From contig NC_018002.1 of the NCBI RefSeq assembly GCF_000265295.1, positions 1 through 64,000 on the forward strand: a stretch of 64,000 nt of DNA. The letters are read 5' to 3'. Every line of letters begins with the position of its first letter. Within the stretch, counting starts at the first letter, position 1. A program made the position numbers and the translations under genes. Origin of the DNA: Sulfurospirillum barnesii SES-3 (GTDB taxonomy: Bacteria > Campylobacterota > Campylobacteria > Campylobacterales > Sulfurospirillaceae). The notes under the pieces are model-generated. The model had not been told where the DNA came from. It saw nothing but the letters and a program-made list of their open reading frames with translations, and made no database searches. Shown in pieces: positions 22,229 through 30,055 of this stretch.

Positions 22229-23161
22229 TTAGTGATTTAGAAAGTTTTGAATGTTTTGGGCAACCAAGTTCATAAGAGCCGTACGTGCTTCAACGCTTGA
22301 CCATGCGATATGCGGCGTCATAAGGAGACGCTCTGGATGCTTTACATGTAAAAGTGGATGATCTTTTTGCATCGGCTCAGTTTCTAGCACATCAAGTCCC
22401 ACATAGAGCTCTTTTCCGTCGATGATCTTTGCAAGGGCGACTTCATCGATGATGCCGCCGCGTCCGACATTGACAAGCACGGAACCCTCTTGCATTAGGG
22501 TAAGTGCGTTCATGTCTATAAGCCCTTTGGTTTGGGCATTGAGCGGTGCGTGAATGCTGATAACCGAGCAGGTTTGAAGCATCTCTTCCAAGCTAAGTCG
22601 TTGAAAGAGCGCATCATTGTTGGCGCCACTGGTGGAAAAATAAACGACCTCCGATCCAAATGCCGTCGCAATCTTCGCCACCTCTTTACCAATCGTCCCA
22701 AGTCCGATAATCCCCCATCGTTTGCCTTTAAGTTCCCAAAAAGGACGCTCGATATGCGTAAAGGTTGGCGCTTCAACCCACCCACCTTTTTTAACAAAAT
22801 CGTCGTAATAACCGCAACGACCGATGAGACTAAGGGCTAGCATGATCGTCGTTTGCGCCACAGAAGCTGTGGAGTAGCCTGCCACGTTTTTCACCACGAT
22901 GCCCTTTTGGCTTGCATGCACCAAGTCAACATTGTTCGTTCCCGTTGCTGTGACGCAAATGAGCTGAAGCTGTGGGCACGCATCCATCGTCGCGGCATCA
23001 ATGAGTACTTTATTGGTTAAAACGATGTTTGCATCTGCGATATGCGCAACACACTCTTCGGGTGACGTGGTCTCGTAAGTGCGAAACTCCCCAAACGATT
23101 TAAAGAGGCTTAGGTCAATATCTTTTCCCATCGTTTGGGCATCTAAAAAAACGATTTTCAT
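22229..23161 (-). CDS. D-isomer 2-hydroxyacid dehydrogenase, NAD-binding
   Basis: The 310-residue enzyme should interconvert a 2-oxoacid and its D-2-hydroxyacid, in the glycerate/hydroxypyruvate reductase style. The nucleotide fold shows GLGTIGKEVA. Catalytic positions are visible in NVGRGGIIDE (Arg), LDVLETEPM (Glu) and MTPHIAW (His). It lies 3 bases downstream of the isochorismatase-like gene and 9 bases upstream of the AhpD-like gene. A palindrome at 22342 encodes LLHVKHPE in a surface loop. Confidence 0.87.
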   Translation of the reverse strand: MKIVFLDAQTMGKDIDLSLFKSFGEFRTYETTSPEECVAHIADANIVLTNKVLIDAATMDACPQLQLICVTATGTNNVDLVHASQKGIVVKNVAGYSTASVAQTTIMLALSLIGRCGYYDDFVKKGGWVEAPTFTHIERPFWELKGKRWGIIGLGTIGKEVAKIATAFGSEVVYFSTSGANNDALFQRLSLEEMLQTCSVISIHAPLNAQTKGLIDMNALTLMQEGSVLVNVGRGGIIDEVALAKIIDGKELYVGLDVLETEPMQKDHPLLHVKHPERLLMTPHIAWSSVEARTALMNLVAQNIQNFLNH

Positions 23162-23164
23162 ACA

Positions 23165-23722
23165 TTAATCCTTTTTAAGTAATGGTATCCATTCGTTTAG
23201 CGTTAAAACGCGACTAAATCCAAACGCCTGCGCGACTAAAAAGGCTCGGTGTAACGCTTCCGCACTCACGCTTCCTGCATTGTTCTCAAAATCCAGTGTG
23301 CCATTGGCATCGCTGAGAAATTCAACAGTATAGCCAAGCTGTGAAGCATCGCGTGCAGTGGCATCACAACAGTTTTGGGTCATGTATCCGATGATGGAAA
23401 CCGTGTCAATACCAAGAGCTCTAAGCCTGTAGTTCAAGTCCGTTCCCACAAAAGAGCTCGCATGGTTTTTTTCGATATAAAGATCAGGCTTTATAGCTTT
23501 GATCGCATCGTGAAATTCCCACAGATGACTTCCTCTCGCAAATGCACCTGCATTTTCTTTGAGACTCGTGTGTTGCACAAAAACGATCATTTCACCCACT
23601 TTTTGTGCTTCAGCAATGGCGGTTTTGATATTCTCAAAACTGTTCGGCGGATAGCTAATGGGCAATGCCCCACCTTCAAAATACTCATTTTGAACATCCA
23701 CAACGATAAGGGCTCGTTTCAT
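23165..23722 (-). CDS. Isochorismatase-family cysteine hydrolase
   Basis: The 185-residue protein has the triad of the cysteine-hydrolase (nicotinamidase/isochorismatase) family: Asp in VVDVQNEYF, Lys in EKNHASSF and Cys in GYMTQNCCDATARDA. The substrate cannot be told from sequence. It is the first gene of the operon. GGAGG lies 4 bases before the ATG, and a TetR operator palindrome abuts that site. TTGACT (in the second operator) with TAAACT 17 bases on could be its promoter. Confidence 0.85.
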   Translation of the reverse strand: MKRALIVVDVQNEYFEGGALPISYPPNSFENIKTAIAEAQKVGEMIVFVQHTSLKENAGAFARGSHLWEFHDAIKAIKPDLYIEKNHASSFVGTDLNYRLRALGIDTVSIIGYMTQNCCDATARDASQLGYTVEFLSDANGTLDFENNAGSVSAEALHRAFLVAQAFGFSRVLTLNEWIPLLKKD

Positions 23723-23731
23723 AAAACCTCC

Positions 23732-23782
23732 TTGACTGTTTGGTCAAGCAGAAGTTTAACCAAAATTGACCGTTTAGTCAAG
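23732..23782. promoter_or_regulatory. Twin TetR-type operators between divergent genes
   Basis: Two palindromes share the form TTGACYGTTTRGTCAA: CTTGACTGTTTGGTCAAG at 23732-23749 and TTGACCGTTTAGTCAA at 23767-23782, with centres 34 bases apart. They lie between the isochorismatase operon and tetR. One covers the likely -35 of the operon, the other its leader next to the ribosome site. TATAAT at 23800-23805 probably drives tetR. This is the expected pattern for repression of both directions. Confidence 0.8.
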
Positions 23783-23828
23783 AGGTGCAAAATTATGTTA
23801 TAATTGAATCAATAAATTGAGGAAAAAA

Positions 23829-24395
23829 ATGGAAACTACACGAGAAAAGCTTATAAGAGCAACATTTGACGAGGTCTTTTCACACGGCTATCAAGGTGCA
23901 TCGCTTGCCGACATCCTAGCCAAAGCAGGCGTGCACAAAGGTTCCATGTACCACTTCTTTGCCAATAAAAAAGAGATGGCACTTGCTGCGATAGAAGAAA
24001 CCATACTCAAAAAAAATCTGGAAAAATACAGCTACGTCGAAACCTACACCAGTGGCTTGTTAGAAGCGTTTTACACCCAACTAAAAGACACCTCCGTGCG
24101 AGACTTCAAACGAGGCTGCCCCATCGCCAACGTCGTCCAAGAGATGTCCAACATCGACGAGGAGTTCAACACCTTGATGAAGTCCATTTACGGCGCATTT
24201 CGAGCAAATATCAAAGCTATTTTCGACAAAGCGATTGAGGTGGGAGAAATGAAACCCTGCGATACGACGAAACTGGCTCTTTTTACGACTTCAACCATTG
24301 AAGGCGCTATCTTGGCGGCTAAGGCGAGTGGAAATGCGCAGGATTATAGTGATGTGATTGAGGAGTTGATAGCGCATATTGAGGGGAAGAGATAG
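23829..24395 (+). CDS. TetR/AcrR-family transcriptional regulator
   Basis: The 188-residue repressor has an N-terminal HTH (FSHGYQGASLADILAKAGVHKGSMYHFFANK) and a helical ligand domain containing Cys in FKRGCPIANV. ATG 23829 follows GAGGA; an in-frame TTG at 23817 is less likely. It faces the three-gene oxidoreductase/hydrolase operon across two operator palindromes, so autoregulation and control of that operon are likely. The ligand is unknown; an electrophile or quinone inducer (NemR-like) is speculation. Confidence 0.88.
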   Translation: METTREKLIRATFDEVFSHGYQGASLADILAKAGVHKGSMYHFFANKKEMALAAIEETILKKNLEKYSYVETYTSGLLEAFYTQLKDTSVRDFKRGCPIANVVQEMSNIDEEFNTLMKSIYGAFRANIKAIFDKAIEVGEMKPCDTTKLALFTTSTIEGAILAAKASGNAQDYSDVIEELIAHIEGKR

Positions 24396-24448
24396 TATAA
24401 TCAAATTTATTGTTTTTGTATTACATTTTTTCATAAAGGCATAAGTTG

Positions 24449-27355
24449 ATGGGTGTAGATGATAACCAATACATGTGGTATGAATTGTATGGTGAATTAG
24501 CCAAAGGTTTACATGATTTTTATCAAAAGTACAAAAATGATAAAGAAAAATATGTTGGTGAACTTTTTTATGATTTATGTTTGACTAAAGAGTTTGAGTT
24601 TCATAGATTATTCAATTGGTCAAACAATATAACAGAAAAAAGTTTAGATCCTTTTCATGTGTTTGCTTCGTTTAACAATAGTTCAACGACTATGGATAAA
24701 AAATGGGAAAGACTACAATTTTATTTTGATATTTTAGAGATTAAAATCAATGCAAAAGAAGCGTTACAGGATAATCGCTTTTCTGTTCCACATATAGCTA
24801 TTATTTATGCTGTCTCCAATAGAGACAAAAAAACACAAAATGAAATTTGGAAGTTTTTTGATGCTGTTTTATTAAATAATAGCAATAGTATTCAAAGCGG
24901 ATTTGAAACATCGGTTAACTGGTTTGGTATCGGATTTACACTTTTAACAGAATTTTTATTTTGGGTTGATTCAGATAAATATCTTTCACTTGATAAGAAT
25001 ACCATTGCTTTGCTCAAAAAATATAACTTCCCCATACCTAAAGATTATCAAACATACAATAATTTACTTTTGAAAATTACAGAATTCACAAACAACCAAA
25101 ATATCTTTAGATTATTAATTGAATATGCGTATCAACAAAAGGAGTTTTTAGATAAGCAATCCAACAAATCTCTTTTTACAGTTCTAAATCAAAAAAATGA
25201 GTCAATAAACGAAAATAATGAATATATTGAGGAAAATTACGTTGAGTCTGGATATGTTCAAGAGGCAAAGGAAGATATAAAATTTCAACTTATCGCTTTG
25301 AGAGTTTTGAATAATTGTTGGGATAAGTACTATAAAAGACTGAATAAAAATCTATATATCTTTAGCGATAAATTTCAATTTTCGCCTAATCAAGAAACAA
25401 TTATTTATATCAAAAAAAATGATTTAAATTTGTTTGAAATCAAACAAATTACAGGTACAGATAATTTAAAAATTAATATTAATGTCATTGTTGGTAAAAA
25501 TGGTTCAGGTAAAAGTACGCTTGTTGAACTTGCTTTTATGGCAATTAATAATCTATATATCGCATTAGAAAAAGAAGAAATAACCAATGATCAAATTGCT
25601 CCTAAATTAATAGAAGATGGTTTACATGTGGAGTTGTTTTTTATGACGGACAATCTCTATAAAGTCACAGTAGAAAATAAAAATATACTGATTGAGCAAT
25701 ACCAACAAGTTGATATTGCAAAAGACATTGTTACGTATGGAAAGAAAAAAGATGTTTCAACGCAGTTTTCAATAGATAACCTTTATTATACGATACATCT
25801 AAATTATTCTCTGCATTCACTCAATGAAAATTATTTTGGTAATTGGTTATTTCGCCTTTTTCACAAAAACGATGGATATAAAACACCCATTGTTTTAGAA
25901 CCCTATAGAAAAGATGGCAATATTGACATCAATAGCCAAATGAGCTTAACGCAAGATAGGCTATTAGCTGATTTATTAGTGATGGAACCAGACACGCATG
26001 ACAGACTATTAACAAAAAAACTTAAAGCAAAAAGTTTATCTCTAAGGCTTAATTATGAAAAAATGGATAAATACAAAGAGCCAACTGTATTTGTTATGCG
26101 TGAATTGCGTCAACAAATCAATAAAAAATTTGATCTTCTACTAGAAGACTTTTCAGAAGATATTTTAAAAAAATTTAAAAAACGTAAAAAAGTTTATTCT
26201 TTGCCTTTTCGTAATATTTCACTTTACGAAGAAGCAAAAAAAATATATCAAGAGTTTTCAATAGAGTTTTTAACGTTGATGTATATTTACAATAAATTAT
26301 TAAGTATGATAAAAAATTATACATACTATAAACAATTTAAAAATAAATTAGGATTGCACAATATAGAAGAAATTTTTGAGTTTGTTGTAAAAGATATTAG
26401 CCATAAAGCATTTAAAATTAAACGTGCAATTTATTTTTTAAAATTTTATAATCAAAAATTTAGAAGGAGAGATCAAACTATAGATTTAAAGAAATTATCA
26501 GATGAGGTTTTGAGAATTCAAGCGACAAATCAAGAGTTAGGAATTCTTGAATTTTTGCCCCCATCTATTTATACACAAGAGATTATTTTTGATAATGGTC
26601 AAAAATTCGATGGATTGAGTTCAGGAGAGAAACAAAAGATATTTGTTCTCACAGCTATTACTTACCATCTTACAAATCTTGCTTCAAGTGAAAATTTTGA
26701 AAATATCAATATTGTTTTAGATGAAATAGAGCTTTATTTTCACCCTGAAATGCAAAAAGATTTTATTAATGACTTGTATCATAATTTAAAAGAAAATGCT
26801 TATATCCGAAACAAATTAAGACAATTAAACTTTATCTTTGTCACACATTCGCCATTTATTTTATCAGATGTTACGCACCATGAATTATTGGCTTTAGATG
26901 AAAATGCTATGCCTAAGCCAGACTTAAAACCCACTTTTGGAGCGAATATTTATGAATTGCTTCAAGACAGTTTCTTTATGGAGTCCTTTTGGGGAAATTT
27001 TGCCAAAGAGAAAATAGAAGAAATAGTTAAAATTGTTAGGCTTTATGAGTTATGTAAAAAAGAAAGTCGTCCAGATGAATTTGATGAGTTTACCGAACTT
27101 TATCGAAAAAAATATAATATAAAAGAGAAAGTTGAAATTAACTGTTTTGAAATAAAAAAGAAAATTGAACAAGACAAACCTAATTTAGTTCTTTTGGTAG
27201 AGTCTGTAGGGGAAAAAATCATTCGATATGAGTTACTACAGCTGTTGGATAAAATCGGTAGCTTGGATGAAAATTTAGCTTATAAACTTGCAAAACATGA
27301 TGTAAAACTTTTAGAAGAAGCCTTAAAACTTGCACAAGAAAATCAAAATGATTAA
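24449..27355 (+). CDS. Large SMC/OLD-like ATPase, Septu PtuA-like
   Basis: The 968-residue ATPase has Walker A VGKNGSGKSTL (about residues 348-358), the ABC signature LSSGEKQK (about 723), Walker B INIVLDEIELYF (about 753-764) and the H-loop FIFVTHSPF. About 340 unrecognised, mostly helical residues precede Walker A. The HNH gene overlaps it by 8 bases. An ATPase plus HNH pair is the layout of the Septu defence system, but most PtuA proteins I know are much shorter. The gene is visibly richer in A and T than its neighbours and has no TTACATGTAA. ATG 24449 is chosen over TTG 24446; AAGG is 9 bases upstream. Confidence 0.8.
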   Translation: MGVDDNQYMWYELYGELAKGLHDFYQKYKNDKEKYVGELFYDLCLTKEFEFHRLFNWSNNITEKSLDPFHVFASFNNSSTTMDKKWERLQFYFDILEIKINAKEALQDNRFSVPHIAIIYAVSNRDKKTQNEIWKFFDAVLLNNSNSIQSGFETSVNWFGIGFTLLTEFLFWVDSDKYLSLDKNTIALLKKYNFPIPKDYQTYNNLLLKITEFTNNQNIFRLLIEYAYQQKEFLDKQSNKSLFTVLNQKNESINENNEYIEENYVESGYVQEAKEDIKFQLIALRVLNNCWDKYYKRLNKNLYIFSDKFQFSPNQETIIYIKKNDLNLFEIKQITGTDNLKININVIVGKNGSGKSTLVELAFMAINNLYIALEKEEITNDQIAPKLIEDGLHVELFFMTDNLYKVTVENKNILIEQYQQVDIAKDIVTYGKKKDVSTQFSIDNLYYTIHLNYSLHSLNENYFGNWLFRLFHKNDGYKTPIVLEPYRKDGNIDINSQMSLTQDRLLADLLVMEPDTHDRLLTKKLKAKSLSLRLNYEKMDKYKEPTVFVMRELRQQINKKFDLLLEDFSEDILKKFKKRKKVYSLPFRNISLYEEAKKIYQEFSIEFLTLMYIYNKLLSMIKNYTYYKQFKNKLGLHNIEEIFEFVVKDISHKAFKIKRAIYFLKFYNQKFRRRDQTIDLKKLSDEVLRIQATNQELGILEFLPPSIYTQEIIFDNGQKFDGLSSGEKQKIFVLTAITYHLTNLASSENFENINIVLDEIELYFHPEMQKDFINDLYHNLKENAYIRNKLRQLNFIFVTHSPFILSDVTHHELLALDENAMPKPDLKPTFGANIYELLQDSFFMESFWGNFAKEKIEEIVKIVRLYELCKKESRPDEFDEFTELYRKKYNIKEKVEINCFEIKKKIEQDKPNLVLLVESVGEKIIRYELLQLLDKIGSLDENLAYKLAKHDVKLLEEALKLAQENQND

Positions 27356-28433
27356 GGTTGATAATTCTGCAAAAAGAAGAATTTTTACGGAAAGTAAAAC
27401 TCAAAAAGTTTTAAGTCTTAAAGCACAAATTGAAAAAAAAATTGAAACTCTTGAGGCAAATAGAACTTACAATTATGATAAGGCGCTATGTAAATTTGAA
27501 AAAGAGCTAAATTCAAAAAATCTCTCCGTTTTCAAATTTAAAAATGCCATAGAATTAAAAATTGATGAGCTGTTGCAACCGCAGCAACAACTATCCGAAT
27601 CATTTAAACGAGAATTGCAAAAATTGAAAAAATCACTCTATCTTATTCTTGTTGGAGATATATCACAAATAAGATTTTTTATTAAGCAGCTACGCGATAA
27701 TGGGTCTTTATTGATACATCTTTATTGTGATGAAACAAATCATCCAAAATCTAATGATTATAAAAAATTTCAAGAAATATTTGAAGATTTATATAAAAAA
27801 GAACTAAGTAATCACTCTATAAAAAAATCATTTTTTGAGATGTTTGAAGATATTAATGTGTGCCCTTACTGTAACCGTAATTTTATTAATCCAATTTATA
27901 AAAAGACTAAAATCGGTTGTGACAATGAAACACAATCTCCAGATATTGAACACTTTTTTCCAAAATCAATGTATCCTTTTTTATCTCTTAGTATTTCAAA
28001 TTTATTGCCATCTTGTAGTTTTTGTAACAAAATTAAAAGTAATGTCGATACATTTAATAATTGCAAAAGTCCTTATGAAATTGACAATAAAATAGATTTT
28101 CTTTTTGAGTTTAACCAAGATGCACAAGATATAAATAAGCGGAATGTTACAGTAAAGACAAAGCTCAATAATTCTGAAATATTGCATCTTGAAAACCTTT
28201 ATAACGAAGTACATTTACACTATATCAACGATATTTATTTTGATGTTTTTAGTCATCCTGAAAAATATTTGAATGAGCTTTCTAGTACTTTAAAGGCAGA
28301 TGAATCTGAACAGAGAAAATGGTACAAAAGCTTTTTCAGAAATTATGCCGACGAAGCAGATTTTAATAAGCATCCTTTGTCAAAATTAACTAAAGATTTA
28401 TTTAATCATTTAAATTCAGTTAAACAAACTTAG
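27348..28433 (+). CDS. HNH endonuclease, Septu PtuB-like
   Basis: The 361-residue protein has a zinc-bound HNH fold. CPYC (Cys172, Cys175) is followed by DIEHFFPKS (catalytic His202), NLLPSC, then CSFCNKIKS (Cys223, Cys226). This matches the HNH nucleases paired with ATPases in Septu and in PtuAB-type retrons. The first 165 residues are helical, rich in Lys and Glu, and unrecognised. ATG 27348 overlaps the ATPase stop (ATGATTAA), so translation is coupled. No reverse transcriptase is nearby, arguing against a retron. A terminator follows at 28438. Confidence 0.82.
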   Translation: MIKVDNSAKRRIFTESKTQKVLSLKAQIEKKIETLEANRTYNYDKALCKFEKELNSKNLSVFKFKNAIELKIDELLQPQQQLSESFKRELQKLKKSLYLILVGDISQIRFFIKQLRDNGSLLIHLYCDETNHPKSNDYKKFQEIFEDLYKKELSNHSIKKSFFEMFEDINVCPYCNRNFINPIYKKTKIGCDNETQSPDIEHFFPKSMYPFLSLSISNLLPSCSFCNKIKSNVDTFNNCKSPYEIDNKIDFLFEFNQDAQDINKRNVTVKTKLNNSEILHLENLYNEVHLHYINDIYFDVFSHPEKYLNELSSTLKADESEQRKWYKSFFRNYADEADFNKHPLSKLTKDLFNHLNSVKQT

Positions 28434-28437
28434 CAAT

Positions 28438-28466
28438 ATCGGAGTAGTTTTATCTCCCCGATTTTT
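28438..28466 (+). terminator. Terminator of the ATPase-HNH operon
   Basis: ATCGGAG and CTCCCCGAT form an imperfect stem around TAGTTTTAT and are followed by TTTTTCT. It lies directly after the HNH stop codon, closing the island. Confidence 0.65.
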
Positions 28467-28501
28467 CTACAATACCCAAAGCGAAAAGCAAAAGAGGTGC
28501 G

Positions 28502-29347
28502 ATGAAAGCGAGTACTCGTGAGGATTATGTTCGGTTGGTGTATAAAGTTGTTTTTTACATCGAGCAAAACGCCGACAAGGAGCTTAGCCTTGAAGAGTTA
28601 GCCAAGGTAGCTGGGTTTTCGAAGTACCATTTTCATCGCATTTTCAAAGCTGTTACGGGAGAAAATATTGGTGATTTTATCGCTCGGGTGCGGTTGGTTT
28701 ATTCGGCGTGGAAGCTCAAAACTGAACCCAAAATCACCAATGTAGCGCTCTCGTGTGGATTTGAAACCAACGCCTCTTTTTCTAAAGCGTTTAAAAACCG
28801 TTTTGGCATGAGTCCACGTGCGTATGCGACGATGCTCAAAGCGAAAAAAGGAGTTGTGATGTTAAAACCTACCATTGTCGAGTTTAAACCTTTGAGCGTT
28901 TTTTATGTGCGAAAAACAGGAGCGTACGAAACCTCTTCGTGTGAGGCGTGGAATGTCTTGATGGCGTTTGCGTATGAGCAGAGAATGAAGTTTCGTAAAA
29001 ATATTATGGGCAAAGAGACGATGCACTTTGGCATCGGGCACGATAACCCTAGCTTAGTTGAGCAAAATTTACTGCGTTACGATGCGTGCATCACCTGCGA
29101 GGACGAGAGCATTGAGCTCAAAAGTGAAGTCTTTAAAAAGGTGCTTGAGGGTGGAAAATGCGCCGTGTTTTTACATAAAGGGGCGTATGAAAATCTAAAA
29201 GCGACCTATGCTCAGATTATGGATTGGGTGGTTGCTGAGGGTATTGGACTTCGTGATGCACCTTTGTTTGAGAAGTACCTCAACCGTGATCCTAGGCGCA
29301 CGAAGCCTGAGAATTTGCGTACGGAGATTTATGTTCCTATCGCATAA
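28502..29347 (+). CDS. AraC-family regulator with GyrI-like effector domain
   Basis: The 281-residue protein has an N-terminal AraC DNA-binding domain with two HTH motifs (LSLEELAKVAGFSKYHFHRIFKAVTG and ITNVALSCGFETNASFSKAFKNRFGMSPRAY). A C-terminal GyrI-like small-molecule domain begins near residue 120. This Rob-like order is typical of regulators of drug efflux or stress genes. No obvious target is adjacent. It starts at ATG 28502 after AGAGGTG and lies directly downstream of the ATPase-HNH island. Confidence 0.85.
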   Translation: MKASTREDYVRLVYKVVFYIEQNADKELSLEELAKVAGFSKYHFHRIFKAVTGENIGDFIARVRLVYSAWKLKTEPKITNVALSCGFETNASFSKAFKNRFGMSPRAYATMLKAKKGVVMLKPTIVEFKPLSVFYVRKTGAYETSSCEAWNVLMAFAYEQRMKFRKNIMGKETMHFGIGHDNPSLVEQNLLRYDACITCEDESIELKSEVFKKVLEGGKCAVFLHKGAYENLKATYAQIMDWVVAEGIGLRDAPLFEKYLNRDPRRTKPENLRTEIYVPIA

Positions 29348-29399
29348 TTATCTTTACATGTAAAGCTTTTTATGGACATGATTATTTGAACTTCTATGT

Positions 29400-29420
29400 T
29401 ATAATACGTGTAATAACACG
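29400..29420 (+). promoter_or_regulatory. Promoter and putative operator of the toxin-antitoxin operon
   Basis: TATAAT at 29400-29405 is followed at once by the palindrome CGTGT-AATA-ACACG (29407-29420), located where the transcript would start. Antitoxins of the Phd/YefM type usually repress their own operon through such a site. A TTTACATGTAAA lies about 35 bases upstream. Confidence 0.55.
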
Positions 29421-29448
29421 GATTTAAATACGCATAGGAGAAAATAAA

Positions 29449-29751
29449 ATGGTAGCATACACACAACAAGAGATGGTAGGAGCCACGGAGTTAGCCAAAT
29501 CGCTGGGTGGTTTTATAGACAAAGTAGTATCTCGAAGTGTCGAAAAACTCGCCATCGTTCGCCACAATAAGCCCGAAGCCGTTATCTTGCCCATAGCAGA
29601 ATACGAGCGGATGAAAGCCATTGCGGACTATGTGGAAGATATGGAGATTTTACACATCATCGAAGAGCGTATGCCTGAGGGAAAAGAGCTTAAAACCGTA
29701 CCGCTGGAAGAGATGATGGGGCGTTTGCGCAAAAGAGGGTTAGATGTATAG
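29449..29751 (+). CDS. Phd/YefM-type antitoxin
   Basis: The 100-residue protein has the antitoxin layout: an N-terminal DNA-binding fold with VGATELAKSLGGFIDKV, the strand KLAIVRHNKPEAVILPIAEYERM typical of Phd/YefM, and a charged C-terminal tail to neutralise the toxin. AGGAG precedes ATG 29449. It overlaps the toxin gene by 8 bases, as in most type II modules. Confidence 0.88.
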   Translation: MVAYTQQEMVGATELAKSLGGFIDKVVSRSVEKLAIVRHNKPEAVILPIAEYERMKAIADYVEDMEILHIIEERMPEGKELKTVPLEEMMGRLRKRGLDV

Positions 29752-30055
29752 TATCGAAACCCTTGAAGAGGTAGAAGATGATTTGTTGCTTTTGCCCAAA
29801 GAGGTGTTGGTGGAAGCGTTAGCGTATTTTGACAAATACAAAACAAATCCCTTTCAATACTCCCAACCCCTAGAAAATAAAGGCGGTCGAGATCTAAGAG
29901 GTTGTCGCAAAACCTATATTGCTAATGCCACATACCGAATTATCCTTCAAGTGGAAAAAGGCGTGGCAAAAATCGTCAGCATTATCTGTGTAGGTGAACG
30001 CAACAATATGGACGCTTACAACACAGCACATGCAAGATTGAATCTTCAAAAATAG
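29744..30055 (+). CDS. RelE/ParE-superfamily toxin
   Basis: The 103-residue basic protein matches RelE/ParE folds: an N-terminal helical hairpin, then LENKGGRDLRGCRKTYIANATYRIILQVEKGVAKIVSIICVGERNN, which contains the family RxxY.IxxY..R.I pattern. RelE-type members cut mRNA and ParE-type members poison gyrase; the sequence does not decide between them. It forms a module with the Phd-like antitoxin, next to a defence-candidate island. Confidence 0.85.
   Translation: MYSIETLEEVEDDLLLLPKEVLVEALAYFDKYKTNPFQYSQPLENKGGRDLRGCRKTYIANATYRIILQVEKGVAKIVSIICVGERNNMDAYNTAHARLNLQK

Follow-up and report, generated by a model that had tools for sequence, protein, structure and literature searches.

An ATPase-HNH gene pair inserted between tetR and araC

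The window analysed here is the first 64,000 nucleotides of the Sulfurospirillum barnesii SES-3 contig NC_018002.1, and contains on its forward strand two overlapping genes that encode an ABC/SMC-type ATPase and an HNH nuclease. The first gene (24449..27355, + strand) encodes a PDC-M62A/PtuA-like ATPase of 968 aa, starting from an ATG at 24449, with an in-frame TTG at 24446, and the second (27348..28433, + strand) encodes a PDC-M62B/PtuB-like HNH nuclease of 361 aa that starts from the ATG at 27348 and whose stop codon ends at 28433. These coordinates bear out the 8-base overlap of the two frames (27348-27355) reported in an earlier note on this DNA. The ATPase comprises an N-terminal domain (residues ~8-232; 24470..25144, +), a linker of low pLDDT (residues 233-279; 25145..25285, +) and a core (residues 280-968; 25286..27352, +), delimited by its profile match, its motifs and region-by-region identity to relatives, which amounts to 29-36% in the N-terminal domain, like much of the ATPase, and 14-23% in the linker. 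All ATPase motifs are intact, namely Walker A (GKNGSGKS, 349-356), the signature (LSSGE, 723-727), Walker B (IVLDE, 755-759) and the H-loop (THSP). The nuclease carries CPYC (172-175), DIEHFFPK (199-206), NLLPSC (218-223) and CSFC (223-226), and an alignment of the nucleases of 10 pairs revealed that residues C172, C175, H202, N218, C223, C226 and N227, which include the zinc cysteines and HNH residues, are invariant.

Alignment of the flanks with eight genus relatives identifies the pair as inserted cargo (24394..28425, no strand assigned). Homology to the relatives ends at ~24393 and restarts at ~28426 (28538 in the most diverged relative), and the intervening ~4 kb has a GC content of 26-27%, compared with 44-45% in the two resident genes that border it. 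These are a tetR-family regulator on the left (23829..24395, +), which is orthologous in all genus relatives compared, and an araC-family regulator on the right (28502..29347, +), with orthologues of 72-95% identity in the genus; the stop codon of the nuclease falls within a flanking AACTTAG common to the relatives. The slot is empty in one of the eight relatives (G020) and holds other cargo in the remaining seven: a PDC-S31/DUF2971 gene in G014, PDC-S31 being a candidate defence gene, an HNH_5 gene in G008, GNAT-type genes in G016, G019, G021 and G023, and genes for a 1116-aa and a 133-aa protein in G011 (L118 2178-5917). Neither of the latter two proteins has a Pfam or PADLOC match, the 1116-aa protein also has no NCBIfam match, and both are possible defence cargo.

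The earlier note had both genes end at one terminator. A terminator-like hairpin with a T-run is evident by eye at ~28437..28465 (+), but it belongs to the resident host sequence, being conserved in relatives both where the slot is empty and where it holds alternative cargo; it was not picked up by a simple terminator scan. With tetR immediately before the cargo and this resident hairpin after it, the pair is likely to be transcribed together with tetR; a promoter scan performed no better than chance. Just downstream, at 29449-30055 of the window, a small overlapping gene pair resembles a Phd/RelE-type toxin-antitoxin module.

Relationship to PDC-M62, Septu and retron systems

The best and longest PADLOC matches of the two proteins, near full-length in each case, are to PDC-M62A for the ATPase (PDLC04737, 1.9e-38, residues 291-863) and to PDC-M62B for the nuclease (PDLC04743, 9e-35, residues 52-357), so that, judged on E-values, the locus has the PDC-M62 layout of an ATPase gene adjoining its nuclease gene. 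The earlier note considered the pair Septu-like and proposed a profile search against PtuA, PtuB and the PADLOC models. The kind was right, since the PtuA and PtuB profiles do match, but only partially and below PDC-M62, with 4.9e-16 for the ATPase lobes and 6.7e-11 for the HNH core, the best stretches spanning no more than residues 720-880 (PtuA) and 195-266 (PtuB). The pair shares with Septu the two-gene layout of an ABC/SMC-type ATPase and an adjacent HNH gene, together with the Walker, signature, H-loop and HNH motifs; it differs in an ATPase of about twice the size, the extra N-terminal domain, a longer nuclease and low similarity beyond the ATPase lobes. Both proteins had also been described as carrying extra N-terminal residues. 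In the ATPase, residues up to ~280 indeed lie outside the PDC-M62A profile, and the PDC-M62 profiles (597-746 positions, among the matches seen) lack this region. The ~165-aa extension of the nuclease, in contrast, lies mostly inside the PDC-M62B profile and is ordinary for PDC-M62B; consequently, only the ATPase extension is unusual.

PDC-M62 is an unpublished PADLOC phage defence candidate. DefenseFinder often calls it Septu, and in a census of Bacillus cereus 203 PDC-M62 calls coincide with Septu calls (PMC11811056); our literature search on PDC-M62 returned a census only and no defence experiment for any such system. The type I-A retrons (Ec78/Eco7 PtuAB) encode a related ATPase and HNH protein (NF041760, 1.7e-10; NF041761, 9.8e-6), but these scores are far under the NCBI cut-offs, the ORFs neighbouring the pair include no reverse transcriptase gene, as noted earlier, and there is no Rfam match in 23000-30000, which rules out a retron of this type for want of both reverse transcriptase and non-coding RNA. 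A housekeeping ABC or repair ATPase was likewise rejected, as no family gave a near full-length match. With the McrB protein of McrBC type IV restriction, the ATPase shares its N-terminal domain, but its motor is of the ABC/SMC type rather than AAA+, with Pfam matches of the AAA_21/AAA_15 type, and its neighbours are tetR and araC, with no adjacent McrC. A phage-borne origin was also discarded: single-protein scans of viral contigs detected no relative of the ATPase or the nuclease, and phage records gave one weak partial match. A scan of genome contigs with the ATPase found one weak locus only.

In a quick tree, the ATPase falls on one branch with the three other ATPases that carry the N-terminal domain (SH-aLRT 96), together with a Segatella (Bacteroidota) ATPase that lacks it, in agreement with the earlier suggestion of a distinct subtype. 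The nuclease clusters with its counterparts in G457 and G345 (100), to which it is 54% and 46% identical, whereas the ATPases of these two genomes are on a different branch from the window ATPase. These discordant groupings suggest that the ATPases have exchanged nuclease partners, although the branches are long and the inference is thus not firm. The nucleases closest to that of the window accompany PDC-M62A-like ATPases of 824 and 828 aa on a separate branch (L094 4506-8025, L095 4856-8358). The pair in G314 (L035 868-8567), whose ATPase carries the N-terminal domain, lies between sbcD-like and sbcC-like genes, with frames that overlap or nearly touch. The S. barnesii genome itself contains a second PDC-M62 pair without the domain (G000:C1 ~1624719-1628700; L097 6714-10695), in which a 400-aa transposase-like gene splits the ATPase; two members of the genus (G012, G014) have uninterrupted ATPases and an HNH gene at the corresponding site.

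Occurrence and predicted fold of the ATPase N-terminal domain

The extension of the ATPase had been thought to contain no recognisable domain. This does not hold: residues ~8-232 form a domain that recurs in McrB, FRG and leucine-rich repeat (LRR) proteins, and for which an HhH-GPD-like fold is predicted, although no Pfam model covers it. Within PDC-M62 it is present in three ATPases besides that of the window, the open frames being 972 (window), 1026 (G314), 1287 (G326) and 816 aa (G423); those of G314 and G326 are full-length ATPase homologues that are likewise paired with an HNH protein, and two further long ATPases (827 and 833 aa) lack the domain. When other genomes were searched with a profile of five ATPase and LRR rows (A2), McrB-type proteins were recovered (G065, 1.1e-12; G147, 6.8e-9; G029, 6.4e-7), as was a stand-alone piece of the domain in G401 (5.2e-7). 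Plasmid searches extended this distribution to McrB proteins encoded beside mcrC in Proteus pR997 and in Deinococcus radiodurans, AAA proteins of Rhodococcus and an FRG-domain protein of Bacteroidales. In G127 the domain is followed by leucine-rich repeats within which the contig ends (L034 2-1513), and matching repeats on another contig of this genome (L147) lead into a Roc-like GTPase region; the two are probably parts of a single LRR-Roco protein split by the assembly. Comparison of the ATPase/LRR group with the McrB/FRG group using hhalign aligned 208 columns with an E-value of 6.9e-15.

To predict its structure, as the earlier note had proposed, AlphaFold models were built for the window domain (mean pLDDT 80) and for an McrB version (mean pLDDT 89) from an alignment of window, genome and viral-contig rows, and both were searched against the PDB. 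For both models nearly every listed match is an HhH-GPD DNA glycosylase and spans the whole domain, led by Ogg2 enzymes with Z 5.5 for one model (149 residues aligned, rmsd 4.3) and Z 4.3 for the other (135 residues, rmsd 4.2). Individually these matches are weak (Foldseek E >= 0.1, Z <= 5.5), and the HhH-GPD reading relies on the match lists agreeing and on two divergent members of the family giving the same result. Compared with a profile of MagIII-type glycosylases, the domain aligns around the HhH motif, GIGFTLLTEFLFWVDSDKYLSLDKNT in the window domain against GIGQETADAILCYVCFREVMVVDKYT in L128, with Asp182 on the conserved Asp of the profile. The conserved Asp that follows this motif is catalytic in the HhH-GPD superfamily; in the domain, 10 of 13 rows have Asp at position 182 and the other three have Asn or Ala. 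Column shuffles scored as high against MagIII in 0 of 200 cases with A2 and in 4 of 200 with profile A4, and the McrB-side profile A3 did not score above chance against MagIII. The match to an EndoIII profile was not above shuffles and was rejected, and marginal sequence-profile matches in the PDB (DciF, 0.012; internalin, 0.27) were judged to be chance. Although the domain resembles the Ogg2 and MagIII glycosylases in its predicted fold and in a putative HhH-like motif with an Asp, the scores are weak and family-level sequence similarity is absent: no member of the alignment has a Pfam glycosylase-family match, and a sequence-profile search of the PDB with the domain returned no glycosylase. 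Searching a viral fold library gave nothing convincing. On balance, we judge that the domain quite probably adopts an HhH-GPD fold, as modelled, and regard the sensing of bases by it as a tentative proposal.

A candidate sensor for a Septu-type system

Taken as sequence, the locus combines intact active-site motifs in both genes, overlapping frames, insertion into a cargo slot and an N-terminal domain common to McrB, FRG and LRR proteins. The best reading is that the pair is a variant of Septu/PDC-M62 with a portable recognition domain, and we assign a probability of about one half to its being an anti-phage system of this kind in which the ATPase bears a recognition domain common to McrB-type restriction proteins; that the two proteins form a complex, sense infection, act on a particular target and defend the host is what we infer. 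According to this proposal, the two proteins would associate and stay inactive in the absence of infection. On infection, the N-terminal domain, with its predicted glycosylase-like build, would bind to the incoming DNA at a particular feature, for which a base that is modified or flipped out, or DNA damage, is the most likely candidate; binding would alter the ABC-type ATPase and release the HNH nuclease, which would cut nucleic acid (tRNA or DNA) so that phage production stops. By analogy with tested relatives, the ATPase would act as a switch for the HNH effector: in the Septu and retron systems tested, PtuAB cuts or depletes tRNA-Tyr and defence is lost when the ATPase or HNH motifs are substituted, Septu EcB88 requiring the motifs of both (PMC13096335, PMC11555353). 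Since the N-terminal domain is the main difference from ordinary PDC-M62 and is also found in McrB proteins of modification-dependent restriction, recognition is the leading interpretation of its role. The earlier idea that the pair has its own sensor is plausible, with this domain as the candidate, and its distribution suggests, rather than proves, a portable sensor of foreign DNA.

A possible alternative is that this is an ordinary Septu/PDC-M62 system, triggered as in members without the domain, and that the domain serves assembly or partner binding. PDC-M62A-type matches occur in 75 of 397 Campylobacterota genomes, and most of the open frames are ~500-700 aa long and lack the domain, so the ATPase core can presumably do without it. 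Moreover, one McrB has the domain where a connector would be expected, with an EVE-like domain on one side and the AAA+ motor on the other; next to a separate EVE-like domain, it might be a connector or assembly part rather than the reader. Nor is it an obvious DNA binder from its composition, as it is not basic but neutral to acidic in several rows (pI 5.9 in the window). However, its attachment to motors and effectors that are unrelated to one another (ABC ATPase, AAA+, FRG and LRR proteins) fits a portable recognition module better than a connector specific to one partner.

It is improbable that the domain is instead an active enzyme that excises a modified phage base, after which the ATPase and HNH protein act at the abasic or nicked site. 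The HhH-GPD-like model with an Asp at the catalytic position would be compatible with excision, and one Septu PtuAB is reported to act on nicked DNA in work cited in PMC11555353, but the loss of the Asp in 3 of 13 rows and the weak fold match argue against it. Antiphage glycosylases do exist: Brig1 and Brig3 share the idea of a glycosylase-type protein that reads a phage DNA modification, though they belong to the UDG superfamily and have no ATPase-HNH partner (PMC11078745, PMC13160076). That the pair is a selfish or housekeeping nuclease module and not a defence system is very improbable. Low GC and insertion, which indicate acquisition only, would be compatible with such a module, but both genes are homologous to Septu and retron effectors, and in relatives PDC-S31 and a further HNH gene are among the contents of the slot.

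Returning to the recognition reading, the trigger of Septu-type systems is poorly understood, and a removable domain common to modification-dependent restriction proteins is a direct, testable candidate for it. We put forward, as a speculative extension, that a glycosylase-like, base-interrogating domain may serve as an exchangeable sensor of modified phage DNA across Septu-type pairs, McrB motors, FRG proteins and LRR-Roco GTPases. If true, one recognition module without a Pfam model would tie type IV restriction to ATPase-nuclease immunity.
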